Assembly: GCF_002896875.1 (NCBI RefSeq)
Contig: NZ_CP023278.1
Location: 4,078,501 to 4,142,500 of the forward strand
DNA length: 64,000 nt
Origin: Nostoc sp. CENA543
Lineage (GTDB): Bacteria > Cyanobacteriota > Cyanobacteriia > Cyanobacteriales > Nostocaceae
Reading direction: 5' to 3'
Part shown: piece after piece, positions 41,916-57,014 of the stretch
Numbering within the stretch: the first letter of the stretch is position 1
How the letters are laid out: every line of letters begins with the position of its first letter
Made by a program: the position numbers and the translations under genes
Notes under the pieces: model-generated
Database searches by the model: none
The model's input: the letters and a program-made list of their open reading frames with translations, nothing else
Told to the model about the DNA's origin: nothing

Positions 41916-41928
41916 CAAGCTTTGTGGA

Positions 41929-41965
41929 AATAACCCCAGTTCTGTGAATCAGAACTGGGGTTATT
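41929..41965 (+). terminator. Strong rho-independent terminator after the PRC-barrel gene
   Basis: A perfect 16-bp stem (AATAACCCCAGTTCTG / CAGAACTGGGGTTATT) with a 5-base loop TGAAT, followed by TTATG. It begins 13 bases after the stop codon. Confidence 0.9.
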
Positions 41966-42039
41966 TTATGATATCTGTGTATTGTTTCTGTAGTGTATTG
42001 GTTACAAGTATCGTTTATATAGCAATACAGTTCAGTTAA

Positions 42040-42178
42040 TACCAATTCATGAAAAGAATGAAACAGATGCGTAGGTTGGGTTGAACGAAGTGAAACCCAA
42101 CAATCACAAGACTTTGAGGTGTTGTGTTTCGTTCCTCAACCCAACCTACATTTGCATCATATTTTTTGTGAAATGGTA
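42040..42178. mobile_element. MITE-like element, family A copy 2 (with nested inverted repeat)
   Basis: The ends are TACCAATTCA and TGAAATGGTA. It is flanked on both sides by TAA (42037-42039 and 42179-42181), a TNA-type target duplication. Its interior differs from copies 1 and 3: it holds a second inverted repeat, GTAGGTTGGGTT...AACCCAACCTAC, so one element may have inserted in another. It encodes no protein. Confidence 0.8.
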
Positions 42179-42300
42179 TAAGGGCTATTGAAAAGGCATT
42201 TAGCAAATGTTTTTTTATCCGTTTCTTACTCTATATTAAGCAAGAGCGATCGCCTTTACCAAATAAAAAGCGATCGCCCCTCGATGATTGCAATAGATAA

Positions 42301-42825
42301 TTACGCAGCCACTAACCGACGCAAAGATTCCGCACGACGTTTAGCTGTCGAATTATTGGGTTGAAATTTGAGTGCTTCTTCGTACATTTGTAACGCTTGA
42401 GCATTCAATTTTTTGCGCTCATAAGCATGACCCAGATTATTTAGTGCTACCACATAATCAGGCTTCAATTTCAGAGCTTCTTTGTACTGACGAATGGCTA
42501 AATCATACTGCTCTTGAGCAAAATAAGCATAACCTAGACCATTGTAGATAGGAGCAGTATTTTCTTCTCCCTCTTCCTCAGCAGACTTGAGTGCTTTTTG
42601 AAACAATGGTATCGCTTGAGTAAACACTTTTTTCTCAGAATAAATACAAGCTAGTTCGTAATATTCTTGAGTCGTACCTTTGTCTTTACTCAACTTGTTT
42701 CGCAACCGCGATAAAGAACTCTCCCGCTTACGAGTTTTGAACAGCTGGCGGAAAACACTCACAACTGCGAATGTCAGTAAACCCACCAAAACAGAGAGAT
42801 AAACAACCGCTAGACTGTTATCCAT
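42301..42825 (-). CDS. Membrane-anchored TPR protein
   Basis: A 174-aa protein from ATG 42825. One N-terminal membrane helix (about 4-24, LAVVYLSVLVGLLTFAVVSVF) is followed by a basic stretch. Three tetratricopeptide units follow from about 50 (TQEYYELACIYSEKKVFTQAIPLFQKALK; APIYNGLGYAYFAQEQYDLAIRQYKEALKLKP; VVALNNLGHAYERKKLNAQALQMYEEALKFQP). It probably acts as a scaffold at the plasma or thylakoid membrane, resembling cyanobacterial TPR proteins tied to photosystem assembly; that link is only inference. A TTG three codons upstream is an alternative start. Confidence 0.83.
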   Translation of the reverse strand: MDNSLAVVYLSVLVGLLTFAVVSVFRQLFKTRKRESSLSRLRNKLSKDKGTTQEYYELACIYSEKKVFTQAIPLFQKALKSAEEEGEENTAPIYNGLGYAYFAQEQYDLAIRQYKEALKLKPDYVVALNNLGHAYERKKLNAQALQMYEEALKFQPNNSTAKRRAESLRRLVAA

Positions 42826-42879
42826 TACCTTCAAATAAAAATATTAAACTTGCTTCTATATCTATTATCGGGCTTATTG

Positions 42880-43075
42880 GGAGTGATGAGTGCTGAGTTG
42901 GGAGTGCTGTTAGCGGTAGCGCGGCGTTTAGCCGGTGATGAGTGCTGTTAGCGGAAGCGGGGCGTTTAGCCCGTGCTGAGTGCTGAGTTGGGAGTGATAA
43001 GTGGGAAAGATGACTAATGACTAATGACTAATGACTAATGACTATTGACTATTGACTGTTGACTATTGACCAATC
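42880..43075. repeat. STRR and palindrome cluster reaching into a 3' coding end
   Basis: GAGTGCTGAG units and a GC-rich block (42898-42980; GCTGTTAGCGGTAGCGCGGCG and GCTGTTAGCGGAAGCGGGGCG) are followed by a run of TGACTAA / TGACTAT heptamers (43011-43070). The GC-rich block is the inverted counterpart of 33022-33082. The heptamers supply the last codons of the solute-binding protein. Confidence 0.8.
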
Positions 43076-43847
43076 CCCAATATTGAATGCGTTCTTTTAG
43101 CCAGCCTTTGGCGATGTAACTTGCGATCGCTTCGTTGACTGCTCTTCTCAATTCATCGTACTGTATACCTTTGGGCATGACTACAGATAAGGGTGCAGTC
43201 GATAATTTTGTTGGTAGAATCCGGTATTGGGGGTTTTTCTGTACCCATGCACTTAATACGCTGGCATCGGCGGCGAAGGCTACTACACTATTGTTTTCTA
43301 GCTGCTTTTGCGCTTCTGTGTAGGAATTTACTCCTACTAAATCGGCAGTAGGTATATAGTAACGGACTTCAGCGATGGTGATGGAGTGATTTAAAACGGC
43401 GATTTTGCGTTTTTGTAAATCGCTTAATTTCTCGATAGACGAGTCTTTGGTGATTAAAACTGTGCCATCAAAATAATAGGGGACGCTAAAACTCACTAGG
43501 CGTGAGCGTGATTCTGTGGCTGTTACCCTAGCGATCGCCATATCTACTTGATGATTGTAAACTGCGGCTAGGCGATCGCGATTCATTACGGGCTGAAATT
43601 TCACAGCGTCGGCTTTTCCTAACAAATCGGCTGCTAAACGCTGTGCTAAGTCAATTTCTAAACCTTGCAATTTCCCACTGGCATCTTTAAATCCTAAAGG
43701 CGGCGTATTATCTTTTACCGCCACGGTTATATAACCCCGTCGTTGCACTTCCTGAATGGGTGAGGCAGATGCAGATAAGCCTGTGGCAAAAAACACGCAA
43801 AAAATGCAAATAATGGTTGCGGATAATACCAGATGTAACTGCTTCAT
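43035..43847 (-). CDS. ABC-type amino-acid (PAAT) solute-binding protein
   Basis: A 270-aa family 3 periplasmic binding protein from ATG 43847. The signal peptide is about 1-28 (LHLVLSATIICIFCVFFATGLSASA). The domain reads VQRRGYITVAVKDNTPPLGFKDASGKLQGLEIDLAQRLAADLLG...VDMAIARVTATESRSRLVSFSVPYYFDGTVLI, typical of polar amino-acid binders. The C-terminus LVNSQQSIVNSH is encoded by the tandem TGACTAT heptamer and is not part of the fold. An upstream in-frame ATG would add 10 residues before the signal peptide. No permease or ATPase genes are adjacent. The ligand is unknown. Confidence 0.87.
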   Translation of the reverse strand: MKQLHLVLSATIICIFCVFFATGLSASASPIQEVQRRGYITVAVKDNTPPLGFKDASGKLQGLEIDLAQRLAADLLGKADAVKFQPVMNRDRLAAVYNHQVDMAIARVTATESRSRLVSFSVPYYFDGTVLITKDSSIEKLSDLQKRKIAVLNHSITIAEVRYYIPTADLVGVNSYTEAQKQLENNSVVAFAADASVLSAWVQKNPQYRILPTKLSTAPLSVVMPKGIQYDELRRAVNEAIASYIAKGWLKERIQYWGLVNSQQSIVNSH

Positions 43848-43889
43848 GATTTGCCTTTTGTTACATCTGTTATTCATCCGGTTTCACCT

Positions 43890-44246
43890 TTAACCTTGAA
43901 CTTGGCTGGCTATTTCCACTACTTTGCTGAAGCCAGCAGGGTCGAGGACTGCTAATTGTGCCAACATTTTGCGGTTGAGTTGGATGTTAGCTTTTTTCAG
44001 GTTGCCGATCAAGCGACTGTAGCTTAAGCCATGTACTCTTGCAGCAGCGTTGATACGGGTAATCCAGAGGCTACGGAAATCGCGCTTTTTCTTTTTGCGA
44101 TCGCGGTATGCACTGCGGAGTGCTTTCATTACCTGTTGGTTAGCGGTTCTAAACAAAGTGGAGTGAGAACCACGGAAGCCTTTAGCTAGTTTGAGGATTT
44201 TATTGCGGCGTTTACGAGCAACGTTACCGCGTTTTACACGGGTCAT
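43890..44246 (-). CDS. rplT: Ribosomal protein bL20
   Basis: A 118-aa large-subunit ribosomal protein L20: [29 protein letters not shown]..., then [43 protein letters not shown]. The length and highly basic N-terminal tail are those of the family. It binds 23S rRNA early in assembly. It follows rpmI by 27 bp on the same strand, the usual rpmI-rplT pair; infC is not upstream here. Confidence 0.98.
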
Positions 44247-44273
44247 ATTCTATTCCTAGATAATCTATCGAAT

Positions 44274-44471
44274 TTACAAATAAGGAAGCATTAAACGCAC
44301 GTTTTCTTCGTCGCGTTCGTTAACAATTGCCATTTTAGAGAAATTGCGCTTCTTATTGGTGGTTTTGTGTTCTAACAAGTGATTTTTGAAAGCTTTGCGG
44401 CGCACAATTTTACCGCTACCAGTGGCGCGGAATCGTTTTGCTGCGGCTTTGCGTGTTTTGAGTTTAGGCAT
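44274..44471 (-). CDS. rpmI: Ribosomal protein bL35
   Basis: A 65-aa large-subunit protein L35: [36 protein letters not shown], ending VRLMLPYL. Both the length and the conserved N-terminus are typical. It is the first gene of the rpmI-rplT pair. The 670-bp spacer upstream is AT-rich and holds a MITE copy. Confidence 0.98.
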
Positions 44472-44695
44472 GGTTTAGCTCTAATTCGACACAATCCCTC
44501 ATTATATATCATGTTGCTCCAATTCATCAAAGCTTGATACGAATTAGGTTTGTGTACTTCACACAGGACAAAAATTCCTATCTCTACCCATTCTCTAGAG
44601 CCAGAATGCCTCCCAATCTACAACAACAATGATGAAAACCAACTTAGAGGGGACATAAATGTTTTAGTTGGTTACTAGCATCTCATACCAATTTT

Positions 44696-44770
44696 GGATT
44701 TTGGATTAAAAGCCCAGATTCTTACCATATTCCAGAATCTCGAAACAAGACTACCTATCTCAATTCTGTA
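44696..44770. mobile_element. MITE-like element, family B copy 2
   Basis: TACCAATTTTGGATTTTGGA ... CAATTCTGTA, flanked on both sides by TCA (44693-44695 and 44771-44773). The core ATTCCAGAATCTCGAAACAA is identical to copy 1 at 11825-11923, which is longer because it has two more GGATTTT units. It lies in the 670-bp gap between rpmI and the RiPP locus, which is otherwise AT-rich and featureless. Confidence 0.78.
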
Positions 44771-45142
44771 TCAGCAATGTTTCCAGGTCGTTTTAGAGGT
44801 GAATAGTTAGCGAGACAACCCAAATTTCCCATGTAATTAAATTAAGAAGGTTATCAATTAATTTTAAAAAGGTTATCCTCATTTTATCTTTAGGAATTTA
44901 ATATTAATAAAATAAAGTAATTTTGTCACTCCTTTATTTATTAAAAATATTGTCTTTTTTTGTCTAAATCAGCGATGATGTCAACGTAAAGACAAGCTAA
45001 AACATATTTATTGGGGCAATGTACATTTAAGGCATGAAAACAAAAAACTAGAGTCTTAAATAGCATCATTCATATAAATATGTGTAGCCCAATTGGAATG
45101 TAACCCAAATAAAAAAGCTCACTGACGGAGGTTAATATCAAG

Positions 45143-45367
45143 ATGGCTAAAATCACAATTTCTGACCTCAACCCCTCTGATTACTCTCTGACTGAATTAT
45201 CTGCTGAAGAAATGGCTGCAATTCAGGGTGGTGGATTCCTTGGTAAACTCATCGGTGGGATTGTAGGCGGTGTTGCAGGATTTTTTATCGCTGGGCCAGC
45301 AGGAGTTTTTTCAGGTATTAGTGCAGGAAGCACATTAGGCGACGCTGTTGAAGAAGTATTCTTCTAA
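45143..45367 (+). CDS. GG-leader bacteriocin-like precursor (glycine-zipper core)
   Basis: A 74-aa peptide precursor. The leader (about 1-30) is MAKITISDLNPSDYSLTELSAEEMAAIQGG, ending in the Gly-Gly processing site. The core of about 44 aa is hydrophobic with GxxxG spacing (FLGKLIGGIVGGVAGFFIAG), as in glycine-zipper, pore-forming class II bacteriocins. It has no Cys and few Ser/Thr, so little modification is expected. The MAxIxISDLN start resembles that of the minus-strand precursor at 51083-51289. A good terminator follows, so it is a separate transcript. TGACGGAGGTTAATATC before the ATG is a fair ribosome-binding site. Target and immunity are unknown. Confidence 0.8.
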   Translation: MAKITISDLNPSDYSLTELSAEEMAAIQGGGFLGKLIGGIVGGVAGFFIAGPAGVFSGISAGSTLGDAVEEVFF

Positions 45368-45420
45368 ATAAGCGTTGAATAACTTAAAAAATATAAAATC
45401 TCATTCCCATTTTTATATGT

Positions 45421-45448
45421 ATCCTCTGATAACATCAGAGGATTTTTG
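45421..45448 (+). terminator. Terminator after the first peptide precursor
   Basis: Arms ATCCTCTGAT and ATCAGAGGAT with a 3-base loop, followed by TTTTGTTGT. It separates this precursor from the next gene. Confidence 0.85.
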
Positions 45449-45587
45449 TTGTATTTCTTATTTTAAAAACACTATTGTTGACCAATTAATTAAAGTAATG
45501 TTAAGAATCAAATGACGACAAAAGTAAACTATTTTTGTCACTCAAATAATTACAGATTTTGTATTATCGATTTTACTTTAAATTAAA

Positions 45588-45905
45588 ATGCAATCTATGA
45601 GAAATATATTTCTCATGAATAAATTTACCAGTGTAGACAAAAACATGGAAACCAATAACAGAAACTTCAAGAATCAAATCGAAATTAATGATTTGATTGA
45701 TGCTGCCGTTAGCGATGCGTTGGCACGTAGAAGCGGAAATGATGACAACTTATCGGACTTGTCTGGTGAAGATGCTGATCATGTAACAGGCGGTATTGCT
45801 TCACTCACAATTGCAGGTTATAAACCTATCCCCCCTATCATTAAACCTATCTGTCCCCCCATCACTGTCGGGATTATTGCACTACCAGGGAAAGAAATCA
45901 TGTAA
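45588..45905 (+). CDS. GG-leader peptide precursor with Pro/Ile-rich core
   Basis: A 105-aa reading frame; the true start may be METNNRNFKN at 45645 (86 aa). The leader is acidic (EINDLIDAAVSDALARRSG... LSDLSGEDADHVTGG) and ends in Gly-Gly. The core of about 37 aa is IASLTIAGYKPIPPIIKPIC then PPITVGIIALPGKEIM, with three PxxPxI units and a single Cys. I do not know this core type. It has Tyr-Lys rather than Tyr-Gly, so it is probably not a splicease substrate. It lies 43 bp before the Cys-rich 146-aa gene and seems to belong to that unit. Confidence 0.72.
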   Translation: MQSMRNIFLMNKFTSVDKNMETNNRNFKNQIEINDLIDAAVSDALARRSGNDDNLSDLSGEDADHVTGGIASLTIAGYKPIPPIIKPICPPITVGIIALPGKEIM

Positions 45906-45948
45906 TTCTACACTTTACTGAAAAATTACCTTACTGGAGTATTAATTC

Positions 45949-46389
45949 ATGGAAGAAATTCCTGCTGAAAAAACTACACTTTGCCCTAGTGCTAGACCCG
46001 AAATAGCAGGAAGCGTAGTCTTCGGTTTAATTAGTGGAACAGTCACAGAACCAAAAGTTACTTATCTCAAACAGCAATTACCTGTAACAGATGAACTATT
46101 AGCGAAAGCTGCTCCTGTGACTCCCACAGAAATCTTTCGGACAGCCGCCCCTTGTGCAGCTAAAAAATGTCAACATTTCGATGGTCAAGACTGTCGTTTA
46201 GCCACAAGAGTAGCAGAAAAATTACCTGCTGTAGTATCAGAACTCCCACCTTGTTCTATCCGCAGAGATTGCCGTTGGTGGCAACAAGAAGGTAAGGCGG
46301 CTTGTATGCGTTGCCCACAAATTATTACTGACAATTACAGCCCATCTCAGCTAATGCAAGAAGTTGCATTAACTGATGTAACTACTTAA
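45949..46389 (+). CDS. Cys-rich protein of the RiPP locus, function unknown
   Basis: A 146-aa soluble protein with nine Cys. After an N-terminal TLCPSARPEIAGSVVFGLISG stretch come CAAKKCQHFDGQDC and then CSIRRDCRWWQQEGKAACMRCPQI. The CX4C...CX5C...CX2C spacing suggests an Fe-S cluster or zinc site. I cannot name its family; similar Cys-rich proteins are sometimes labelled 'nitrogen fixation protein' without support. It has a good ribosome-binding site (ACTGGAG) and lies 17 bp before the Nif11-type precursor, so a role in peptide maturation, such as substrate delivery or electron supply to the radical-SAM enzyme, is plausible but unproven. Confidence 0.65.
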   Translation: MEEIPAEKTTLCPSARPEIAGSVVFGLISGTVTEPKVTYLKQQLPVTDELLAKAAPVTPTEIFRTAAPCAAKKCQHFDGQDCRLATRVAEKLPAVVSELPPCSIRRDCRWWQQEGKAACMRCPQIITDNYSPSQLMQEVALTDVTT

Positions 46390-46406
46390 TTGAAAAGGAG
46401 AAAAAC

Positions 46407-46760
46407 ATGGCTTTTGAAAATGTCAGAGCTTTTTATGAAAGATTGGCTAATGATGAAGCTTTCCGCTCTCAAATGCAACAAGTTGAAAGCAAAGATGAAT
46501 GTAGCCAAGTGGTGAAAGCTGCTGGTTTTGAATTTACCCAAACAGAGTTTGAAGAATATACGACTCAATTATTAGAGTCAGCAGCTGGCGAAGGCGAACT
46601 CAGAGATTTAGATGAACAAGAATTAGAGGCAGTCTTTGGTGGTGCTTCCTCTTTACTTGACAAAATTCGCATTCAACCTTTGTATGGCGTGATTGTTTGG
46701 CCTCCTAAGCCACCTTATGCTCAACCTTTGTATGGGGTTATAGTTAGCGAGGAATTTTAG
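46407..46760 (+). CDS. Nif11-leader RiPP precursor with twin Leu-Tyr-Gly core (spliceotide candidate)
   Basis: A 117-aa precursor. The leader (1-79) is of the Nif11-like type (MAFENVRAFYERLANDEAFR...) and ends LEAVFGG. The core (80-117) contains QPLYGVIV twice, at 90-97 and 106-113, separated by WPPKPPYA. In the Pleurocapsa PlpA/PlpX system a radical-SAM 'splicease' removes the tyramine part of Tyr from X-Tyr-Gly, leaving an alpha-keto-beta-amino acid. Here X would be Leu at both sites. The gene has a strong ribosome-binding site (AAGGAGAAAAAC). A hairpin separates it from the radical-SAM gene. The chemistry is inferred from motif and neighbour, not shown. Confidence 0.85.
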   Translation: MAFENVRAFYERLANDEAFRSQMQQVESKDECSQVVKAAGFEFTQTEFEEYTTQLLESAAGEGELRDLDEQELEAVFGGASSLLDKIRIQPLYGVIVWPPKPPYAQPLYGVIVSEEF

Positions 46761-46788
46761 GCACATTAAAACAGCTATTTCAGTGTTT

Positions 46789-46822
46789 AGGGACGGATAA
46801 ACACAAACCGTCCCTCTTTATA
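46789..46822 (+). terminator. Weak terminator/attenuator between precursor and radical-SAM gene
   Basis: Arms AGGGACGG and CCGTCCCT with an 11-base loop, then CTTTATAT. Such a partial terminator would make more precursor than enzyme mRNA, as is usual in RiPP operons. Confidence 0.65.
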
Positions 46823-46846
46823 TAAGTTGAATAGGGGTGATATTTT

Positions 46847-48097
46847 ATGAGCGATCGCAGAATTAGCTATGCTGTTTGGGAAATCACATTAAAATGTAAT
46901 CTGGCTTGTCAACATTGTGGTTCGCGTGCAGGCCATACCAGAGCCAAAGAACTTTCCACCGCAGAAGCCCTAGATTTAGTCAAACAAATGGCAGATGTGG
47001 GCATCACCGAAATTACACTAATTGGTGGTGAGGCTTTTTTGCGTCCAGATTGGTTGGAAATTGCCCACGCTATTAATCAAGCTGGCATTCACTGCGGAAT
47101 GACAACCGGCGGCTACGGTATTACTTTAGACACAGCACGCCGCATGAAAGATGCTGGCATTAGAGTAGTTTCCGTCTCAGTGGATGGCTTAGAAGCGACT
47201 CACGACAGACTACGGGGTAGACAAGGTTCATGGCAATGGGCATTTAAAACCATGAGTCACCTCAAGCAAGTAGGCATTCCTTTTGGTTGCAACACTCAAA
47301 TTAATCGTCTTTCCGCACCCGAATTCCCCAGTATTTATGAACACATCCGCGATGCAGGTGTATTTGCTTGGCAAATTCAAATGACTGTACCAATGGGCAA
47401 TGCTGCCGATAACAGTGAAATTCTGCTGCAACCTCATGAATTATTAGATGTCTACCCCATGATTGCACGGGTGGCGCAAAGAGCTAAACGTGAAGGTGTA
47501 CAGCTACAACCAGGCAATAACATTGGTTACTTCGGCCCCTACGAACGATTTTTGCGGGGTGGGAGTGCTTGGTCATTTTGGCAAGGTTGCAACGCCGGAC
47601 TTTCGACATTAGGTATTGAAGCGGATGGGGCAATTAAAGGTTGTCCTTCCTTACCGACATCTGCTTACACTGGTGGTAATATCCGTGACTATTCCCTCAA
47701 AACTATCATCGAAGAAACAGAAGAACTGCGCTTTAATTTAGGTGCAGACACACCAAAAGGTACAGCGCATTTGTGGGGTTTTTGCAAAACTTGTGAATTT
47801 GCTGAACTTTGTCGGGGTGGTTGTAGTTGGACTGCACACGTATTTTTTGATAAACGCGGTAATAATCCCTATTGTCATCATCGTGCTTTGACTCAAGCTA
47901 AAAACGGTATTCGGGAACGAGTTTTTCTGCAACGTCAAGCCGATGGTAAACCCTTTGATAATGGTGAGTTTGGTTTAATTGAAGAACCAATTAATGCACC
48001 TTGGCCAGAGAACGACCCCCTACATTTTACGGCTGATAAAATTCAGTGGTCAGCTAGTTGGCAAGAGTCAGAATCATTAGCATCTGTCAGTGTTTAG
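46847..48097 (+). CDS. SPASM-domain radical-SAM peptide maturase (PlpX-like splicease candidate)
   Basis: A 416-aa radical-SAM enzyme. The 4Fe-4S/SAM motif is Cys17-x3-Cys21-x2-Cys24 (KCNLACQHCGSRAG). GGEAFLRPDW and SVSVDGLEATHDRLRG are the usual barrel segments. The C-terminal SPASM region has CNAGLSTLGIEADGAIKGCP and CKTCEFAELCRGGC for auxiliary clusters. It matches the 'Nif11-class peptide radical SAM maturase' type. Lying 86 bp after a precursor with two X-Tyr-Gly motifs, it is likely to be a tyramine-excising splicease. Epimerase or thioether-forming SPASM enzymes are the alternatives, but the core has no Cys. It acts in the cytoplasm, reductant unknown. Confidence 0.85.
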   Translation: MSDRRISYAVWEITLKCNLACQHCGSRAGHTRAKELSTAEALDLVKQMADVGITEITLIGGEAFLRPDWLEIAHAINQAGIHCGMTTGGYGITLDTARRMKDAGIRVVSVSVDGLEATHDRLRGRQGSWQWAFKTMSHLKQVGIPFGCNTQINRLSAPEFPSIYEHIRDAGVFAWQIQMTVPMGNAADNSEILLQPHELLDVYPMIARVAQRAKREGVQLQPGNNIGYFGPYERFLRGGSAWSFWQGCNAGLSTLGIEADGAIKGCPSLPTSAYTGGNIRDYSLKTIIEETEELRFNLGADTPKGTAHLWGFCKTCEFAELCRGGCSWTAHVFFDKRGNNPYCHHRALTQAKNGIRERVFLQRQADGKPFDNGEFGLIEEPINAPWPENDPLHFTADKIQWSASWQESESLASVSV

Positions 48098-48133
48098 TTA
48101 AAAATAATTTGTTACCACAAGCGATAAATACAA

Positions 48134-48316
48134 ATGTCTACTAACATCACTAATTCAGAAACATCAGTACAAAATATTTCCCAAACTCAGGTTGAACCTA
48201 GCTTGCCTCGTTCAGCTTGGAATAGTCAGTTAGCTTATTTTAAAGTTATGTTTAGAGCCAAGAAAGCTTTAGACCGCATAGAAAAAGAAGCAGGAATCGA
48301 AAACAATTATTCTTAG
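48134..48316 (+). CDS. 60-aa protein at the end of the radical-SAM operon
   Basis: A 60-aa, soluble, mostly helical protein in its second half (SAWNSQLAYFKVMFRAKKALDRIEKEAGIE). It is on the same strand, 36 bp after the radical-SAM gene and followed by a strong terminator. Splicease systems need a small partner protein (PlpY in Pleurocapsa). This is the right place for one, but I see no definite sequence likeness. It is too short for a standard winged-helix peptide-recognition domain (RRE, about 80 aa). It could also be a second, unrecognised leader-like peptide; it has no Gly-Gly. Confidence 0.6.
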   Translation: MSTNITNSETSVQNISQTQVEPSLPRSAWNSQLAYFKVMFRAKKALDRIEKEAGIENNYS

Positions 48317-48330
48317 TCATTGTACCTTCT

Positions 48331-48368
48331 AGATCCCGGACTTCTTTGAGAAGTCCGGGATCTGGTTT
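48331..48368. terminator. Bidirectional terminator between the two converging RiPP arms
   Basis: A perfect 15-bp stem (AGATCCCGGACTTCT / AGAAGTCCGGGATCT) with a 3-base loop, then GGTTTTTG. It lies between the stop codons of two convergent genes at 48316 and 48378. It belongs to the palindrome type also seen at 4810. Confidence 0.88.
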
Positions 48369-48377
48369 TTGCTCTAT

Positions 48378-49490
48378 TTACAATGGGAGATAAATATCTG
48401 TAGAGTTGGGATTCAAATAAGGAAATTTTAAATCCACATTTAATCTAGCAAATTGCTCGATGATTGTAGCGAGTTTAGCTTCTGGCGATCGCTGATTATT
48501 TTGTTGAGCTATTATTAAGCCATTAGCAATAATTTGACAGCGATTTGTGCCGAAGCTTTCATATTGATCAAATTTAGCATCTGGTTCTTCTGCTAAACCC
48601 AAACCAGATGCTAATTTTTTGGTAAATAAAGGAATATCTTCCTGGAAATAAGCTGTATTTTCGCTGTAAATATTTTGCAGTATCGGATGTACTCTCAAAT
48701 AATCCTTCTGTCTAATATAGAGTACACCAGCATCATATCTATCATAGCCAGAGTAACTGTAAGGAACTTTAAAGGAAAAGTAGATTTGTTGTGCATTTAA
48801 TTGCTGCGTTACAGCCCGCATTAAAGGCACAGCACCATCTGAAGTAATATTAAAATAAATTCTGATGATTCTGTGATTTATATCTCCTTCATCTACAGGC
48901 ACAAGACCTGTATCACCGACAGCAATATAAAACCCTTCTTGGACACAGTTTTTAGGCATTTTAATTGCGACAACATCACCTACACTTACAGACTTTTCCT
49001 GAGTTTTTAAATGAATTTCAGGATGAATATGTACAGTTAATTGTCCTCTGGTGACTGCAATACTGTTGTCTTGTTCTAATTTTTTCACTACCCAATCAGG
49101 AGAAAAATAACCATCTCCCTGATTACCAGCGTGGAGTTGTTGGAAAAGACTGACATCTATACCAATCAAATTATCATTGTTCAGCCTTTGATTGTCTATT
49201 AATTCTGCTGTATTTGTTTGTAATTGCAAGGATTTAATCAGTGAGCCATTATAGTAAATGCCATATAAAAAGTTTCTGATATGTTTAACTACGTGCTTCT
49301 GTTGAACTTCTATAGGTAATTTATGAAAGCGATTTTTGATATCTGTAGAAGTTTCCCAAGGTCGATAATTTGGATGACGGACAGATAAATCACTATCTAA
49401 TTCTAAGTAAGTAGCAATATCCTCAAGCGTTGCTTGTAAGTTTTTTTCAGCCTGAGACAAAATCTGATTGGAATATTGAAGAGCCTTCAT
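48378..49490 (-). CDS. HopA1-family protein, probable phospho-Ser/Thr lyase of a RiPP dehydratase
   Basis: A 370-aa protein related to the HopA1 effector family: HIRNFLYGIYYNGSL near 80, YFSPDWVV, then VAIKMPKNCVQEGFYIAVGD, RIYFNITSDGAVPLMRAVTQQLN and FSFKVPYSYSGYDRYDAGVLYI. In class V lanthipeptide (LxmY) and thioamitide (TvaD) pathways a HopA1-like protein removes phosphate from phospho-Ser/Thr made by an APH-like kinase, giving dehydroamino acids. Here the kinase gene is the next upstream, 33 bp away. ATG 49490 is chosen for its good ribosome-binding site (CTGGAGATATAAAA). The lyase role is inferred from the pairing. Confidence 0.82.
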   Translation of the reverse strand: MKALQYSNQILSQAEKNLQATLEDIATYLELDSDLSVRHPNYRPWETSTDIKNRFHKLPIEVQQKHVVKHIRNFLYGIYYNGSLIKSLQLQTNTAELIDNQRLNNDNLIGIDVSLFQQLHAGNQGDGYFSPDWVVKKLEQDNSIAVTRGQLTVHIHPEIHLKTQEKSVSVGDVVAIKMPKNCVQEGFYIAVGDTGLVPVDEGDINHRIIRIYFNITSDGAVPLMRAVTQQLNAQQIYFSFKVPYSYSGYDRYDAGVLYIRQKDYLRVHPILQNIYSENTAYFQEDIPLFTKKLASGLGLAEEPDAKFDQYESFGTNRCQIIANGLIIAQQNNQRSPEAKLATIIEQFARLNVDLKFPYLNPNSTDIYLPL

Positions 49491-49523
49491 TTTTATATCT
49501 CCAGTAGAATTATGCAACCACTT

Positions 49524-50705
49524 TTACGCAGAAATCGCTACACTAGCTAGTTCTTTTTCTGTTACCCCCAGGATACTAACTAATGAAGCATCGGGACGAC
49601 ACAATAAACTTTTCGCTACTTGGAGAGAGTAAATATCACTATTAACTAACTGCTTATGATGTTCAATTTTAGCTTGTGTTTGAATAATCAAAGCCACACC
49701 CATAAACTGAATCAGCTTTTTAAAAAAGTCGGGGAAATGTTGGGTGATTTCTGGAAAATGCTGCAAATATTCTCGAACAATAACTAGAATAGATGGACGA
49801 ACATCTTCTAGTTTAAATTCTGCTGAATTAATTGACTCTTGCATACTCATTGAAGGGTCAATCACCATGCTAACTATCCATAAAATTACATAATTAGCAA
49901 TTAAGTTAGCTAAATCAAATATGGGGTCTCCCCAACTACTTCTTTCCCAATCAATGATTTTCACTACTGAGTGTTTCTGTGCGAGTGCAAAGGAAGTAAT
50001 ATTTTCCCAATCTTGATGGACTAAAATATTGGCAACATTCAAATCATTGTGAACCACACAACAAGCACGCCAAGAGTTAATAGCCTCTACTTTTGCTTGA
50101 TCTAAACTTTCATAACGCTGGTAAAGACCAATGAATTTGATATAGTCAGGAGGCATGACACTGAGAAGTTCTGGAGTGATTCTATGTTGTAATAAAATAA
50201 ATGCCGCACCTCTTTTTTGCCAAAAGCTATCAGGTTGTGTGACGTAATTATATGCCTCCTCGCAATTGAAAGTCGCGCGATGAATTTGCGCTAATATTGC
50301 CCCTATCCAACCAGGAATTGTGACAGGTAAAATTTGGCGCGATCGCAAAATTCCACTATATAATTCTTGATAATCATCTAGATATTGATAAATAGCAATG
50401 AAGTTTTCATGATCATAGGTAAGCATTTCTCTAATAAAACCCTGTAAAGGATTTAAATGAGAAATATTACCTATCATGCTTTGAAACTGCCATTCATTAA
50501 AAATTTCCTGAGAAAATATTCCTGAAAGTGTAGGGCGTTCCTGCTTAACAATAAATTTCCGCCCATCCTTAAGGGTGGCTATGATACTAAAATTCTTTGT
50601 ATTTAACTTACCTACATCTAAGGTTAAACCTGACAATTCCTGTTGTGTAAAAACACTAGATTTACTTAGATATTCTACTACATTGTGATGACTTAAAAAA
50701 AACAT
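49524..50705 (-). CDS. APH-family kinase, probable Ser/Thr kinase of a RiPP dehydratase
   Basis: A 393-aa aminoglycoside-phosphotransferase-fold kinase. The nucleotide-binding segment FSIIATLKDGRKFIVKQERP has the Lys. The catalytic loop VVHNDLNVANILVH is near 217-230 and the metal-binding Asp lies in VKIIDWERSSWGDPIFDLANLI. Beside a HopA1-like gene and GG-leader precursors, it parallels LxmK and TvaC, which phosphorylate Ser/Thr of the precursor core. A drug-resistance role is unlikely given this context. GTG 50708, one codon upstream, is an alternative start. Confidence 0.82.
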   Translation of the reverse strand: MFFLSHHNVVEYLSKSSVFTQQELSGLTLDVGKLNTKNFSIIATLKDGRKFIVKQERPTLSGIFSQEIFNEWQFQSMIGNISHLNPLQGFIREMLTYDHENFIAIYQYLDDYQELYSGILRSRQILPVTIPGWIGAILAQIHRATFNCEEAYNYVTQPDSFWQKRGAAFILLQHRITPELLSVMPPDYIKFIGLYQRYESLDQAKVEAINSWRACCVVHNDLNVANILVHQDWENITSFALAQKHSVVKIIDWERSSWGDPIFDLANLIANYVILWIVSMVIDPSMSMQESINSAEFKLEDVRPSILVIVREYLQHFPEITQHFPDFFKKLIQFMGVALIIQTQAKIEHHKQLVNSDIYSLQVAKSLLCRPDASLVSILGVTEKELASVAISA

Positions 50706-50781
50706 CACTCCCCCACACTGATTTATTAGTTAATTAACAGACAAATTACTAGTCAGCAAAATTTTACTGAGCCAATCAGAT

Positions 50782-51006
50782 TTATGTTCTACTTCTGGCA
50801 AAAAACAGTCGATAAATTAACAAGGAAGCAATAATCACAATCAGCCCAAATCTTAAGATAGTGGCCGAAGTACCTGCTGTGGTATTTAAATTAGGAAATG
50901 CCAGTTGAGCAACAGTAGTTATGAATAACACTGAAGCTAAAATATTTTCACCTTCTATCAACAATGCTAAACCAATCAAGCCGAATAAATATGGTGTGAT
51001 ATTCAT
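50782..51006 (-). CDS. Small two-to-three-helix membrane protein (possible immunity)
   Basis: A 74-aa protein that is almost wholly hydrophobic: ITPYLFGLIGLALLIEGENI, ASVLFITTVAQLAFP, and TILRFGLIVIIASLLIYRLFF with a basic end (ARSRT). It has no Gly-Gly leader, so it is not a precursor. Its position, right after two precursors and before the modification genes, is usual for an immunity protein, but I recognise no family, and a structural membrane role is equally possible. Confidence 0.6.
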   Translation of the reverse strand: MNITPYLFGLIGLALLIEGENILASVLFITTVAQLAFPNLNTTAGTSATILRFGLIVIIASLLIYRLFFARSRT

Positions 51007-51030
51007 GGATAACCCTCATTTATTAGGTAA

Positions 51031-51063
51031 AAGGTCAGGGTTAGATATCAACATCCTGACCTT
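51031..51063 (-). terminator. Attenuator-like hairpin after the two precursors
   Basis: Arms AAGGTCAGG and CCTGACCTT with a 15-base loop; on the minus strand TTTTACC follows. It lies between the second precursor and the small membrane protein. It would favour precursor over enzyme mRNA, as the hairpin at 46789 does in the other arm. Confidence 0.6.
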
Positions 51064-51082
51064 TGATATTAGAGAGAATTAA

Positions 51083-51289
51083 TTAGTGAGTCAGTTTATA
51101 GACTAACGCACCAAAAGCAGCACCAGAACCACCAATAACCAAAGTGGTTAAGAGATACGCCCCCCAGGTAGCAGGTGTAGCACCACCAACTGCACCACTG
51201 AGTTCAGCATCAGTTACTTCATTTAAATAGCTTTCGCTATCAAATAGAAGGTTGTACTCAGAATTGAGATCGCTAATTACAATTGCCAT
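51083..51289 (-). CDS. GG-leader RiPP precursor, Cys-free core (second of pair)
   Basis: A 68-aa precursor. The leader of 36 aa (MAIVISDLNSEYNLLFDSES...VTDAELSGAVGG) ends in Gly-Gly. The core of 32 aa (ATPATWGAYLLTTLVIGG then SGAAFGALVYKLTH) has five Thr/Ser dehydration candidates and no Cys. It is hydrophobic, probably membrane-active. The ribosome-binding site AAGGAGAAAAAA is strong. Its leader start resembles the peptide at 45143. With the APH-like kinase and HopA1-like protein downstream, Dha/Dhb residues are expected but lanthionine rings are not. Confidence 0.8.
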   Translation of the reverse strand: MAIVISDLNSEYNLLFDSESYLNEVTDAELSGAVGGATPATWGAYLLTTLVIGGSGAAFGALVYKLTH

Positions 51290-51328
51290 TTTTTTCTCCT
51301 TATTTATTGATGTAACAGGGTGAATTTA

Positions 51329-51574
51329 TTATCTAGAAGCAACGTAGCCAATTACGGCACCACCAGCAAAAGTTCCGAGAGCAAAGCCAGTACCGAAGCT
51401 AACACCCCAAACGCTAACACTACCAAGTGAAGCAGCAGTAAATGTCACGACAGGAGTGATACCTCCAATTGCTGCGGTTAACTCACGATCTTCTAAATCG
51501 TTGAGGAAGCTTTCAGAGTCAACTAATAAATCAGCACCGGCAAATTTTAATTCATTAATTGCAATAGATGCCAT
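51329..51574 (-). CDS. GG-leader RiPP precursor, Cys-free core (first of pair)
   Basis: An 81-aa precursor. The leader of 38 aa (MASIAINELKFAGADLLVDS... LEDRELTAAIGG) ends in Gly-Gly. The core of 43 aa (ITPVVTFTAASLGSVSVWG and onward to YVASR) is rich in Thr, Ser, Gly and Val, with no Cys. Its leader is clearly related to the next precursor (DLLVDSESFLNDLEDREL against NLLFDSESYLNEVTDAEL). CTGGGAGAATTCATC precedes the ATG. The pair may form a two-peptide product. Modification by the neighbouring kinase/HopA1 pair is inferred. Confidence 0.8.
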   Translation of the reverse strand: MASIAINELKFAGADLLVDSESFLNDLEDRELTAAIGGITPVVTFTAASLGSVSVWGVSFGTGFALGTFAGGAVIGYVASR

Positions 51575-51813
51575 GATGAATTCTCCCAGTATTCAATGAA
51601 TATTTATGGCTTATGCTCAGAAATTTCTGTCTTCTGGCACAACATAATAAATATCAGCAAATATTCTTGATATACAACACTTTTAAATCATGTTTTCGGA
51701 CTTAAAAAATTCATTTGTGGTCTGAGGATAGATTTCATTTAATTTAGATGTTTACGCTCAAGATTGCCAGATATAAATTATCGGAGTTTTGAACAGATAA
51801 ATCTGTATTAAAA

Positions 51814-51845
51814 ACTTTAGTGCTGAGTTACATCAGCACTAAAGT
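51814..51845 (-). terminator. Terminator of the exporter-parvulin transcript
   Basis: A perfect 13-bp stem (ACTTTAGTGCTGA / TCAGCACTAAAGT) with a 6-base loop; on the minus strand TTTTAAT follows. It lies in the 355-bp gap between the parvulin gene and the precursors, so the precursors should have their own promoter at about 51580-51800. That region is AT-rich and I could not choose a promoter. Confidence 0.8.
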
Positions 51846-51929
51846 GCTTACTACTAACAGGAGAATTTATTTTCCGATACTATGAGAGGGACATAATAAA
51901 TTTAATTGCTTCCCTGGTAATCTCATGAA

Positions 51930-52700
51930 TTAGAGTGATTGGCTATCTTGCAAATCAAATGTAACTGTGACTGATTCAACTTGGATCTTCAGCCAATGGG
52001 AAAATAACTCTAATGTCAATAAATTACGTAGCTTAGTATCTAGTTGCGGCACAATTATTTGCTCTACTAAAATTAGATGCGCGCCTTTAGAGGTAAAAAT
52101 TGGCTTAAGCAGTTGTGGTGGTTGGGAGGCGAAAATCGCCGCAGAAATTTCTGGTTTTAAATCCTGACGTTTTAAAACACCTTGATATCCGCCACGACGG
52201 CGTAATTCTTCATCTTGAATATATTTGTGGGCGACATCGTAAAAACTGATTTCCCCTTCTTGAATGGCATAGAAAAGTTCAATCGCTAAATCTTCATCAT
52301 CAAGGATAACTTCATAGGCGATCGCACTTGTATAATCATTCTGATGCTCAAAAAAGTAAGGCTCAACTTTATCTGCAAATAAATGCTCTGCTAACTTAGC
52401 TGAAAGTAGGGAAAGATGAGCAACTTTTTCAAAATCATCTAAAGAAAGTCCGTGTTTTTCTAACCAAGTCCATGTCTGAGCAGCACTACTTAATTTATTG
52501 GTTAATCTGATTTTGTCCGCAGTTTGTTGTAACTCTTCGGTATCAACTTGAATACCTAGTTTTGCGGCTGTATTTTCTACAATTTTACGGACAGTGATTT
52601 CTTCTACCAGACTGGGAACTTTGCATGATAGTTTGATTTGCTCGATGAAGTCTTCTTTGTTGAGATTTATCTGCTGTGGAATGGTAATAATTTGTGACAT
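51930..52700 (-). CDS. Parvulin-type (PpiC) peptidyl-prolyl isomerase of the export operon
   Basis: A 256-aa protein. The first 100 residues are helical (SurA-like: VPSLVEEITVRKIVENTAAKLGIQVDTEELQQTADKIRL). A parvulin domain follows (about 130-225): IAYEVILDDEDLAIELFYAIQEGEISFYDVAHKYIQDEELRRRGGYQGVLKRQDLKPEISAAIFA, then KGAHLILVEQIIVPQ. There is no signal peptide, so it should act in the cytoplasm or at the membrane. Such isomerase-like genes are common between HlyD-type and precursor genes in cyanobacterial bacteriocin clusters. A chaperone role on precursors is likely. It is 49 bp after the HlyD-type gene. Confidence 0.85.
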   Translation of the reverse strand: MSQIITIPQQINLNKEDFIEQIKLSCKVPSLVEEITVRKIVENTAAKLGIQVDTEELQQTADKIRLTNKLSSAAQTWTWLEKHGLSLDDFEKVAHLSLLSAKLAEHLFADKVEPYFFEHQNDYTSAIAYEVILDDEDLAIELFYAIQEGEISFYDVAHKYIQDEELRRRGGYQGVLKRQDLKPEISAAIFASQPPQLLKPIFTSKGAHLILVEQIIVPQLDTKLRNLLTLELFSHWLKIQVESVTVTFDLQDSQSL

Positions 52701-52749: not shown

Positions 52750-54273
52750 CTATAGTTCCACTCCTCCCTGCTTTAATTTTTTAAATGGATCTAACAGAAA
52801 ATCGATGATGCGGCGTTGTCTAACTACTACTTCTGCTGTAGCGGTGTCTCCAGGACGCAGAGGAATACATTGATTAGCGGTAGGCATACAATGTTGATAT
52901 AATGCAATATCTAATTGATATGCTGCTACTTTGCCACTTGCTGTGTCTATCTCAAATGTAGTAGGAGAAATTTCGATTAATTTACCTTCTATGACTCCGT
53001 AATCTTGAAAAGGATAGGCATCAAATTTGAGTTTTACAGGCAATCCCGTTTGCAAAGAACCACTTTCAGTAGTTGCCATCTGCGCTCTAATGACTAAAGG
53101 TGAATTAATGGGTGAAATTTCTGCAATCATTGTTCCAGGTTGCACCACCGAACCTGCTCTTTGAATTGGCAGTTGGAAAACTGTACCATCCACAGGTGCT
53201 TTTAACTCTCTTTGGCTTAACTGGAATTTTAATGCCTCTATTTGACTTTTATTTTGAGCTATTTCTGCTTTGAGAGCAGTAATTTCTCTATCTAAGTTCT
53301 TGAGTTGTTCTTCACTTTTGAGAATAGCTAATTTTCCAGCATGATTTAAACTCTGAAAACTCCGTTCTTTTTCCTGAATGCGTAACTGTGATTGTTCAAT
53401 ATTAGCTTTGGCTTGCCTGATAGTTCTTTCATAACTATTTAGTTGTTCTGCTAGCCTGAGTTTTGATTGTTCAACATCTGATTTGGATTGTTCTAGTAAT
53501 TTGGTTCTTTCTTTAGCTATATCTTGCTTGTCTACTAGATTAATTTCTGGAACTATTCCTTCTTGCCAAGCTTGTTTGTAACGTTCTACTTCTCTGCTGG
53601 CACTGTTTAAGCTAATTTCGACTAAATTAGAAGTAATGCGACTATGTTCTAAAGCTTTTCTTGCCTGATTAACTTGAGCTAGTTTTTCTTCTTCTTGGAA
53701 ATTAAAGGAGTTAATAATAGCCTTAAGATTCTGTCTTTCTTGGTCAATTTGTGCTTGTTTTTCTAACTCTTGGGCTTGATTTTGCTGGCGTTGAACCGTC
53801 CAAGCTAGGGCTAGTTGATTTTTTAATAAATTGAGTTGTGATAGTTGGTTTAATTGTCCTTCTAATTTCGTTTGTGCCTGTCTTAACTCAGTATTAACTA
53901 ACTCAGATTCTAATACTAATAAAGCCTGCCCTGCCTTGACTGATTCCCCCTCTTTAACTAAGATTTTTTCCACAGTTCCTGATACAGCCGCATCTAATCT
54001 GACTGTTTTACCTTCAGGTTCTAATCTGCCTCTTGCTGTACCGGTTTCATCAACTTGAGAAAACATTGCCCAAGGTAAAGCTATCGAGATAAAAATCACT
54101 AAAAAATATAAAATTCCTCTTGTCCAAGTTTGCGGTAAGCTATCTAGTAATTCTTTGGTGACATTAGACCAATCATCATTAGCCCTAGTAGACTCTGACG
54201 ATGTAGTTAACTGTTCATGCACTTTTTCTTCATGCACTGGAGGTGGAACAAATCCATTCAAGGTGTTAGGCAT
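52750..54273 (-). CDS. HlyD-family membrane-fusion (adaptor) protein
   Basis: A 507-aa type I secretion adaptor. The cytoplasmic N-terminus (about 1-50) is followed by one membrane helix (about 54-74, GILYFLVIFISIALPWAMF). The split lipoyl domain (VSGTVEKILVKEGESVKAGQALLVLES; ELKAPVDGTVFQLPIQRAGSVVQPGTM) encloses a long coiled-coil hairpin (about 125-340). A C-terminal beta-barrel follows. It bridges the ABC exporter to an outer-membrane channel (TolC-like, not in the window). It lies 35 bp after the exporter gene, in the same operon. Confidence 0.93.
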   Translation of the reverse strand: MPNTLNGFVPPPVHEEKVHEQLTTSSESTRANDDWSNVTKELLDSLPQTWTRGILYFLVIFISIALPWAMFSQVDETGTARGRLEPEGKTVRLDAAVSGTVEKILVKEGESVKAGQALLVLESELVNTELRQAQTKLEGQLNQLSQLNLLKNQLALAWTVQRQQNQAQELEKQAQIDQERQNLKAIINSFNFQEEEKLAQVNQARKALEHSRITSNLVEISLNSASREVERYKQAWQEGIVPEINLVDKQDIAKERTKLLEQSKSDVEQSKLRLAEQLNSYERTIRQAKANIEQSQLRIQEKERSFQSLNHAGKLAILKSEEQLKNLDREITALKAEIAQNKSQIEALKFQLSQRELKAPVDGTVFQLPIQRAGSVVQPGTMIAEISPINSPLVIRAQMATTESGSLQTGLPVKLKFDAYPFQDYGVIEGKLIEISPTTFEIDTASGKVAAYQLDIALYQHCMPTANQCIPLRPGDTATAEVVVRQRRIIDFLLDPFKKLKQGGVEL

Positions 54274-54308: not shown

Positions 54309-57014
54309 TTAATTGACAGGGCTGAGTTGCTGTTGATTAAGATAGAAGTAATGACCCTTTTTATTCATTAATTCTTCGTGAGTTCCCTGTTCAATTAATA
54401 GTCCTTTGTCAAGAACTAGAATCAAATCTGCATTACGCACTGTGGATAAACGATGGGCAATTACTAGAGTAGTTCTACCCTTGAGAATTGTGTTGAAATT
54501 ACGCTGAATAATTCTTTCTGATTCTGCATCTAGATGGGAGGTTGCTTCATCTAAAATGAGTAATTTAGGATCACCTAATAATGCTCTGGCGATCGCAATT
54601 CTCTGACGTTGTCCTCCAGAGAGCATTCCACCACCTTCACCTATCTGTGTTTCGTAGCCTAGAGGTAGCTTTTTAATGAACTCATCCGCGCCGGCTAATT
54701 TAGCAGCTGCAATCACTGATTCTAAAGAGGCACTAGGAGAACCTAAACTAATATTGTCCCTAATCGTACCGCCAAACAAAAATGTATCTTGGTCAACTAC
54801 TCCCACCTGTTCCCGCAAGGAATGTAAGGAAATACTAGTAATATCCTGTCCATCAATCAATACTTTGCCATCTGTAGGAGGATACAAGCCTAAAACTAAC
54901 TTAGAAATTGTCGTTTTACCTGAGCCACTCCGCCCCACTAAAGCCACCATTTGACCTGGTTTAATTTCAAAAGTCAAATTTTCTAAAATATTCATATCGC
55001 TTTCTGGATGATAGCGAAAGGTCACACGATCAAAGCGAATATGTCCCTTGATTGGTGGTAAAGATTGACGAGATTGATATTGTAAGTCTTCTTCTGCTTC
55101 AGTGTCTAAAACATCATTAATCCGTTCCACAGCAATTGTGACTTCTTGCAATTCATTCCACAAAACTATGAGTCTTTGAAAGGGCGTAATAATGTTACCC
55201 AGTAGCATATTAAAGGCTACCAATTGACCAATAGTTAATTGATTGTTAATTACTTGATGTGCGCCGAACCAAAGTAAGGCTGTACTGACAACAGCTTGAA
55301 TAGTATTGCTGAAAATTTGGAGGCGATTGCCAATTACTTGCCCAGAAAAACTGGTTTTGATTTCTTTATTGAGTAAATCTTCCCAATGCCAACGGACTGT
55401 TTGTTCTACGGCTGTGGATTTAACTGTGCGTACACCAGATAAGACTTCAATTAGGTAACTACTTTCATTGGCATAGGCGTTAAATATTTCCCTAGATATT
55501 TTACGTAAAAACGGCGTAGCAACTAGTGCCAAAATGAAGAAAGGTGGCACAATTACCAATACTAATAATGCCATTTTCCAGCTATACCACAACATCAAAC
55601 CCACATAGATTACAACTGTGAGTAAATCTAGGAGAATTGATAAGGCTTCGCCGGAAAGGAAGCGTTGAATTTTGCGATTTTCTTGCACACGGGAGATAAT
55701 ATCCCCCACATAACGAGATTCAAAAAAGCTTAAAGGTAAGCGGAGAGTATGACGAATAAATGCCACAATCAAAGCCACATCTATTTTATTGGCTGTGTGG
55801 TCGAGCAAGTATTGTCTTAACCCTGTCATTGCTACGCGGAATAGGTTAAAGATAAGCAAGCCTAAACCGACGGCAAATAAAGTTAATTCGGAACGCTGTA
55901 CAACTACTCTATCTAAAATTAGCTGAGTAAATAGAGGTGTAATTAACCCAAATATTTGGATAAATACAGAGGCGATGAACACCTCAAACATTACTAAACC
56001 GTGCGGCTTAACTAATTCAAAAAATTGCCAAAAAGGTGTTGTTGCTTCTTGAGTATCTTTCAAGAAAACAGTTGGTTGCAGTAGTAATGTGTACCCAGTC
56101 CAATCGGCTTTAAATTCTTCATGGGTAAGGGTGCGTTGACCGATCGCCGGATCGGCAACAATAACGTGTTTAGATGTAATTTGATAGACAACTATATAAT
56201 GTTTGCCTTCCCAGTGTGCGATCGCAGGTAAGTTTTGTTTAGCTAGTTGGTCTAAGCTAGCTTTGACTGGTCGTGTTGAAAAGCCAATACTTTCTGCGGC
56301 GGCGGATAACCCACGCAAGGATGCACCGTTACGATCTACATTGGCGATATCTCGTAAGCGATTGACACTCACACGTTTTCCCCAGTAACGAGATACCATC
56401 ACTAAACAAGCTGCACCACAGTCTGACGCACTTTGTTGAGCAAAAAAAGGATAACGACGAGTTACTTTTTGTAAGAGATGACCTACGCGTTGACTGGGAT
56501 GTGGAAAGTAGGCTTTACTGATGGTCTTCGGTTTAGACTCAGCGACTGGTATGGATGGGGAATGATTTTGAGTTTCTGTTGGCTGTGAAGAATGATTTAA
56601 TAAACGATGACGCGATCTAGCTTTGGCTAAGAGATGTTCTTTGATAGCGGGATATTTTTGCATCCAAGCAGTAATCACATCACCAGGAATCAAGCACAAT
56701 TGCAAATTGACACTCGCCCTCGCCCCATAAGGCTGAAATTTCTGGTCTGGAAATAGGGTGAATTCTCCAAATGATTCTCCACTTTCCAGGGTGGTGATCA
56801 ATTCTCCGTCTTGATTGAGTAATCGGACTTTACCCGCGATCGCAATATACACTCCAGCCTCAACGTTTTCTCCTGTCCAAAACTTACCGATTTTGGGGTT
56901 GAGGAATTTAAATTTTGGGTAGCAGCGTTGAAATTCTACTAATGGTAGAGAATAACCCAAAACATTGTTTAACAGTTCTGGCGAAACCAACTGATCGGAT
57001 AGCTTCTGCACCAT
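54309..57014 (-). CDS. Peptidase-containing ABC exporter (C39 peptidase) with N-terminal cNMP-type domain
   Basis: A 901-aa exporter for Gly-Gly leader peptides. Residues about 20-140 form a cyclic-nucleotide-binding-like domain (VYIAIAGKVRLLNQDGELITTLESGESFGEFTLFP). The C39 peptidase domain (about 185-315) has the catalytic Cys in QQSASDCGAACLVMVSRYWG, His in GKHYIVVY and Asp in ADPAIG. Six membrane helices follow (about 335-600). The ATPase has Walker A VGRSGSGKTT, signature LSGGQRQR and Walker B LLILDEATSHLD. It cleaves leaders after Gly-Gly and pumps the core out. It is the only such exporter in the window. Its start overlaps the HTH gene by 107 bp. Confidence 0.95.
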   Translation of the reverse strand: MVQKLSDQLVSPELLNNVLGYSLPLVEFQRCYPKFKFLNPKIGKFWTGENVEAGVYIAIAGKVRLLNQDGELITTLESGESFGEFTLFPDQKFQPYGARASVNLQLCLIPGDVITAWMQKYPAIKEHLLAKARSRHRLLNHSSQPTETQNHSPSIPVAESKPKTISKAYFPHPSQRVGHLLQKVTRRYPFFAQQSASDCGAACLVMVSRYWGKRVSVNRLRDIANVDRNGASLRGLSAAAESIGFSTRPVKASLDQLAKQNLPAIAHWEGKHYIVVYQITSKHVIVADPAIGQRTLTHEEFKADWTGYTLLLQPTVFLKDTQEATTPFWQFFELVKPHGLVMFEVFIASVFIQIFGLITPLFTQLILDRVVVQRSELTLFAVGLGLLIFNLFRVAMTGLRQYLLDHTANKIDVALIVAFIRHTLRLPLSFFESRYVGDIISRVQENRKIQRFLSGEALSILLDLLTVVIYVGLMLWYSWKMALLVLVIVPPFFILALVATPFLRKISREIFNAYANESSYLIEVLSGVRTVKSTAVEQTVRWHWEDLLNKEIKTSFSGQVIGNRLQIFSNTIQAVVSTALLWFGAHQVINNQLTIGQLVAFNMLLGNIITPFQRLIVLWNELQEVTIAVERINDVLDTEAEEDLQYQSRQSLPPIKGHIRFDRVTFRYHPESDMNILENLTFEIKPGQMVALVGRSGSGKTTISKLVLGLYPPTDGKVLIDGQDITSISLHSLREQVGVVDQDTFLFGGTIRDNISLGSPSASLESVIAAAKLAGADEFIKKLPLGYETQIGEGGGMLSGGQRQRIAIARALLGDPKLLILDEATSHLDAESERIIQRNFNTILKGRTTLVIAHRLSTVRNADLILVLDKGLLIEQGTHEELMNKKGHYFYLNQQQLSPVN

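Follow-up and report, generated by a model that had tools for sequence, protein, structure and literature searches.

A probable spliceotide operon with twin Leu-Tyr-Gly sites in Nostoc sp. CENA543, compared with the plp system of Pleurocapsa

The closest described system is that of Pleurocapsa, in which PlpA, PlpX and PlpY have been characterised and PlpXY acts naturally on LYG and MYG (excerpts of PMC10533398). Activity of PlpXY in TB medium has been reported (excerpt of PMC9484694). According to a review, more than one splicing event per precursor can be directed by XYG motifs, and at the level of the class the spliced residues confer potent protease inhibition (PMC10373908, section 10). A 2022 review states that spliceotides had yet to be isolated from nature and had no known role (excerpt of PMC8868522). 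Spliceotide calls of the antiSMASH type appear in Microcystis and in lake metagenomes (excerpts of PMC11264947 and PMC11837572), and in one lake survey spliceotides were among the commonest cluster types (excerpt of PMC11837572). Our literature search, whose coverage excluded most primary spliceotide papers, returned nothing recognised as the locus described here.

We analysed a stretch of 64,000 nucleotides from Nostoc sp. CENA543, hereafter the window. The precursor gene in the ORF list (46407-46760, +) encodes 117 aa, of which residues 1-79 form a Nif11-type leader (46407..46643, +) that matched TIGR03798 in an NCBI profile search (E 1e-13; 51.3 bits, cut-off 32.3) and PF07862 in a Pfam search (E 1.3e-13). 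Gly-Gly (residues 78-79) closes the leader, and the 38-aa core that follows (residues 80-117; 46644..46757, +) has the sequence ASSLLDKIRIQPLYGVIVWPPKPPYAQPLYGVIVSEEF, in which a WPPKPP linker separates two putative XYG splice motifs, both with Leu as X. Each motif sits in the octet QPLYGVIV, found at residues 90-97 (46674..46697, +; Tyr93) and again at residues 106-113 (46722..46745, +; Tyr109), with a spacing of 16 residues and WPPKPPYA between the copies. The first-pass annotation had described a Nif11-type leader with a terminal Gly-Gly, QPLYGVIV twice at a spacing of 16, and a WPPKPP linker between identical sites, and all of these features were borne out. At the DNA level the octets differ at three third-codon positions, all of them synonymous, leaving zero amino acid mismatches, so the twin octets are not a fresh DNA duplication. 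Both octets fall on one tryptic peptide, IQPLYGVIVWPPKPPYAQPLYGVIVSEEF, with calculated monoisotopic masses of 3298.768 unmodified, 3163.700 with one loss of C8H9NO (135.07 Da) and 3028.631 with two (270.14 Da). The formula C8H9NO corresponds to 135.0684, which differs from the value of 135.0757 given for it in PMC10533398. In the gap between the precursor and enzyme genes, an inverted repeat (AGGGACGG...CCGTCCCT; 46789-46815, +) followed by a T-rich stretch was seen by eye. This repeat was absent from the output of a scan for terminator-like sites, and is perhaps an attenuator that holds the level of the precursor above that of the enzyme.

The gene that follows (46847..48097, +) encodes a predicted radical-SAM/SPASM splicease of the PlpX type with 416 aa, assigned by TIGR04103 and by its identity to the enzyme of the comparison locus L126 described below. 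Against TIGR04103, an NCBI equivalog model, it scored 836 bits, which is 111 above the cut-off of 725, while the next-nearest NCBI family, TIGR03913, gave 402 bits against a cut-off of 591.75. The enzyme contains a CX3CX2C motif (C17-X3-C21-X2-C24), and a further seven cysteines are of the SPASM type (248, 266, 313, 316, 322, 326 and 343). All ten are kept in 115 of 115 aligned homologues, in agreement with the earlier description of an adjoining SPASM radical-SAM gene. The Pfam SPASM model scored 20.9 on this protein, 0.6 bit short of its cut-off of 21.5. Matches to StsB (87 bits) and SkfB (83 bits) were weak and far under the cut-offs of those models, and a search of solved structures found no close relative, the best match being SkfB (E 2e-21). 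The genome from which the window was taken contains one TIGR04103 gene.

In order to find a PlpX comparator, the splice tag of PlpA3 given in an excerpt of PMC10533398 was back-translated, with Met put back at the X position as in that paper's M5G name, and searched across 388 genomes of the order. One of the 388 genomes matched, and the stretch taken from it is L126. Its source is presumably Pleurocapsa sp. PCC 7319 or a nearly identical strain. A 485-aa ORF in L126 was labelled PlpD, an epimerase-like candidate, an assignment that we assume from its position. Both Nif11 precursors of L126 carry sequences as in the published tags: AVAAMYGVVFP in one of them and, at the end of the other, FPIRPLYGLPI, which corresponds to the PlpA2-type tag PIRPLYGLPI (table in an excerpt of PMC10533398). 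An alignment with PlpX, proposed in the first-pass annotation as a check, was made through the 419-aa PlpX-type enzyme of L126 (824 bits to TIGR04103, cut-off 725), which shares this family with the window enzyme and is 73% identical to it over 413 aa. The best blastp match of the window enzyme to the PlpD candidate covered 18 residues (E 0.40), and this candidate was absent among the family-HMM matches at E 1e-8. Judged by their sequences, the window enzyme and PlpX are members of one family in separate sub-clades: a rapidly built tree places the former in a group of 35 rows with 99% support that leaves PlpX outside, and the two are not placed in the same sub-clade because this branch splits them. 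In the same tree 21 of 55 inner branches were open and the PlpD candidate was misplaced among the spliceases with a branch length of 10, a long-branch artefact, which means that the tree alone does not exclude an epimerase and that the comparison rests on identity and profile scores.

Directly 3′ of the enzyme gene is a 60-aa ORF (48134..48316, +) encoding a putative PlpY-like partner, which in a phmmer search matched the 56-aa ORF found 3′ of PlpX in L126 (E 2.4e-5), although the match is short (27 aa, 37%). Of 119 loci in which the enzyme matched strongly, all 119 had a PlpY-like ORF 3′ of the enzyme gene, at a median gap of 21 bp. The first-pass annotation had placed the locus at 46407-48097; the ORFs in this span were confirmed, but the PlpY homologue at 48134-48316 had been left out. 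When predicted alone, the window protein consists of one helix (26-53) and no strands (mean pLDDT 69.2, about 92 over 31-50), and a search of solved structures with the PlpY-like profile gave no match. The title of a 2024 paper by Richter is reportedly in line with this single-helix prediction. The strandless model also fits the statement that PlpY is too small for an RRE fold (excerpt of PMC12710340), while PlpY is still termed a truncated RRE in PMC11002830 (excerpt). The operon likely ends at 48329..48365 (+), where a stem of 17 pairs is followed by a T-run. This stem is long, and with three terminator-like sites found against 3.0 expected, the number of such sites is not above chance.

The match to PlpA/PlpX/PlpY extends to the enzyme, its partner gene, the type of leader, the Gly-Gly site and the surroundings of X-Tyr-Gly. 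From this we infer, in support of the PlpX/PlpA-type reading of the first-pass annotation, that the window very probably contains a plp-type spliceotide operon like that of Pleurocapsa. In the proposed pathway, the precursor with its Nif11 leader would be made first, and the radical-SAM enzyme, together with its helical PlpY-like partner, would excise a tyramine equivalent (C8H9NO) from each Leu-Tyr-Gly. The chain ends would be rejoined to leave two alpha-keto-beta-leucine residues with a rigid Pro-rich linker between them, and the spliced product would read ...IQP-[k-beta-Leu]-GVIVWPPKPPYAQP-[k-beta-Leu]-GVIVSEEF. Cleavage of the leader behind Gly-Gly and export of the peptide would follow, possibly via a nearby C39-peptidase ABC exporter. 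Splicing would thus be expected at both LYG sites, and the product may function in protease inhibition. The operon represents a compact and testable case, in which a single tryptic peptide of the one precursor holds both identical sites and the enzyme pair is clear.

TIGR04103 genes above the cut-off occur in 61 of the 388 genomes of the order (the comparison below counts 63 splicease genomes), and in 14 of 40 relatives. In 12 of these 14 a QPLYG-type DNA pattern lay no more than 1.4 kb upstream of the enzyme, and two QPLYG[VI/M] matches within 60 bp were found in eight of the 14 compared to none of the 26 others. The background of the single QPLYG pattern consists of scattered matches in 8 of the 26 relatives without a splicease, and a reversed control matched in 18 of the 40 genomes. 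One genome, G112, is a copy-number outlier with four TIGR04103 genes above the cut-off.

A 146-aa Cys-rich protein that is unannotated (45949..46389, +) is encoded upstream of the precursor, with a gap of 17 bp to the precursor start. It pairs with a GG-leader peptide (45588..45905, +), here called the DLID peptide, that has an IEINDLIDAAV leader and a core with PPITVGII. Eight cysteines of the Cys-rich protein are invariant in 24 aligned sequences, but the members scanned matched no Pfam or NCBIfam family, except for one chance-level Pfam match (E 0.18). Its profile found nothing beyond E 0.64 among solved structures, the predicted fold was not usable (mean pLDDT 39.8), and no family was found for the DLID peptide in the libraries searched. 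One alternative, which we regard as doubtful, is that these two proteins belong to the spliceotide pathway, such that the precursor, enzyme and PlpY-like protein alone would be insufficient for the native product. Points in its favour are the 17-bp gap and the distribution of the Cys-rich protein, which was found in 44 of 63 genomes with a splicease against 31 of 325 without (Fisher p 5e-23, with kinship ignored) and, among the 40 relatives, in 12 of 14 with a splicease and 1 of 26 without. The protein is, however, missing from 19 of the 63 splicease genomes and from the plp stretch of L126, whose genome has a distant copy on another contig, and in places that have no splicease it adjoins DLID peptides, HopA1/APH genes and exporters. 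A dedicated role for the Cys-rich protein as partner of the splicease is likewise made less likely, because 31 of 75 carrier genomes contain no TIGR04103 gene and the copies in these lie next to DLID peptides, with HopA1/APH or exporter genes often present too.

A GG-leader peptide (IEINDLIDDAV-type, with a PPI..G[LI]I core) was found within 600 bp upstream of 52 of 70 distinct Cys-rich proteins, and 10 of the 18 cases without one had less than 600 bp of sequence. In 23 further stretches, mostly without a splicease, several of these pairs adjoin neighbours of HopA1/APH size or a C39/HlyD/PpiC exporter. The DLID peptide and the Cys-rich protein are therefore probably a separate, second peptide cassette that is often co-located with spliceases, and may merit a study of their own as a separate peptide system. 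It is quite unlikely that the operon is instead a composite in which the Cys-rich protein, as an undescribed partner, acts on both the spliceotide and the DLID peptide, yielding a further-modified spliceotide or a two-peptide pair.

An ABC exporter with a C39 peptidase domain (54309..57014, -; PF03412 E 8.5e-43, PF00664 and PF00005) and the HlyD-type adaptor of this exporter (52750..54273, -; PF13437 E 2.7e-20; TIGR01843 218 bits, cut-off 208.65) are present, and from its domain content the exporter is a candidate for leader cleavage and export. It lies 6 kb from the operon on the opposite strand, and an ABC-type homologue, counting any ABC protein of this type at E 1e-5 with or without a C39 domain, was found in 20 of 65 splicease loci of at least 9 kb. 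A HopA1-domain protein (48378-49517, -; PF17914 E 1.5e-54) and an APH-type kinase (49524-50708, -; PF01636 E 1.7e-8, with a weak LxmK match of 32.8 bits, cut-off 315) have homologues in 23 and 21 of the 65 loci, respectively. A PpiC-type protein (51930-52700, -) that matched TIGR04500 (putative peptide maturation) with 58.7 bits, below the cut-off of 180, has homologues in 37 of the 65. Three small Gly-Gly peptides resembling bacteriocin precursors are encoded at 51083-51289 (-), 51329-51574 (-) and 45143-45367 (+), the last of these giving weak bacteriocin-family matches, and all three are likely cargo of the nearby C39 exporter.

Differences in the use of the XYG sites were compared across splicease loci, comprising the best 80 of 218 by similarity to the window enzyme and the loci from the genome search. 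Nif11-type precursors on the same strand and within 3 kb of a splicease were collected, giving 193 in 114 of 119 loci, 154 of them distinct. Eight of the 154, seven with YG, were missed by the Gly-Gly rule and excluded, leaving 146 cores that differ in sequence but are not independent, as some loci repeat one genome. In these cores 243 of 357 Tyr residues precede Gly (shuffle mean 29.4, maximum 45 in 1000 shuffles), while the leaders of the same precursors contain 5 YG in 11,824 residues. The site consensus is Q-P-[LM]-Y-G-[VI]-[VI], where X is Leu in 124 of the 243 sites, followed by Met (60), Ile (20), Ala (11), Val (10), Pro (5) and others (13). All four Pro, four Gly and six Leu codons are in use in the 132 P[LM]YG tetrads, which indicates that the peptide sequence is what is kept, and comparison of the cores shows these candidate splice sites to be conserved under protein-level selection. 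Of 19 control Nif11 precursors away from a splicease, drawn from 30 of the listed Nif11 places given as loci, 15 had no YG, and YG as a general trait of Nif11 cores was rejected on this count. One of the four that do contain YG (in L206) has it near the C-terminal tail. Three of the 18 control ORFs counted as adjacent had no YG and were DLID-peptide-like, having been caught by the lenient leader HMM. Three cores have Pro at X in their sole XYG (QPPYG or QQPYG; L015:2698-2997, L025:5609-5908 and L028:5244-5555), and if spliced these would give an unusual beta-proline-type residue.

The number of XYG sites per core was none in 3, one in 56, two in 76, three in 9 and four in 2, so that 87 of the 146 have two or more. 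The twin layout of the window is thus the commonest form in the family, because 76 cores have exactly two sites, and the only unusual trait of the window core is exact octet identity, since 4 of 100 consecutive pairs had identical octets. Across the 87 multi-site cores, the segment from the first to the second site is 32% Pro compared to 10% outside the sites, WPP occurs in 56, and about eight residues typically follow the last YG. It could be argued that just one LYG site is spliced in nature and that the other is a spacer or relic, as a single site is present in 56 of the 146 cores, and degeneracy (for example with X = Ala or Pro) is seen in some neighbours of twin cores. We consider this very unlikely for the window, where the octets are identical in amino acids despite three synonymous mismatches, given that exactly two sites are kept in 76 cores and that the review cited above (PMC10373908) allows for several XYG splicings per precursor. 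Any functional model must account for the QP[LM]YG[VI][VI] grammar and the Pro-rich spacing seen across the 146 cores.

It is hardly credible that the enzyme catalyses a different radical-SAM reaction, for instance epimerisation or thioether synthesis. Maturases of sactipeptides and of other products do occur among the radical-SAM SPASM enzymes of RiPP clusters, and the StsB and SkfB models matched weakly at 87 and 83 bits. Those scores, however, are far under the cut-offs while that of TIGR04103 is exceeded by 111 bits, the window core contains no Cys and hence none for a thioether, the enzyme has no match to the PlpD candidate, and the conserved feature of the cores is XYG.

Among known systems, the window is most like Pleurocapsa plp (PlpA1-3, PlpX and PlpY), with which it shares a Nif11-type Gly-Gly leader, LYG in the core, a PlpX-family enzyme and, directly 3′ of that enzyme, a PlpY-type helix protein. 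Unlike plp, where one site per precursor was seen in two precursors, the window core has two identical sites, and no PlpD-like epimerase was seen among the window ORFs at 40000-56000. The GDL-motif radical-SAM/SPASM maturases of TIGR03913 are the next-nearest family, yet the window enzyme is 189 bits under their cut-off. The neighbouring HopA1 and APH genes resemble the lyase/kinase pairs proposed to form dehydro residues in class V lanthipeptides (excerpt of PMC9415263). With the wider spliceotide class from cyanobacterial genome mining, the window shares a cyanobacterial host, and it differs from that class only by the exact identity of its two octets.
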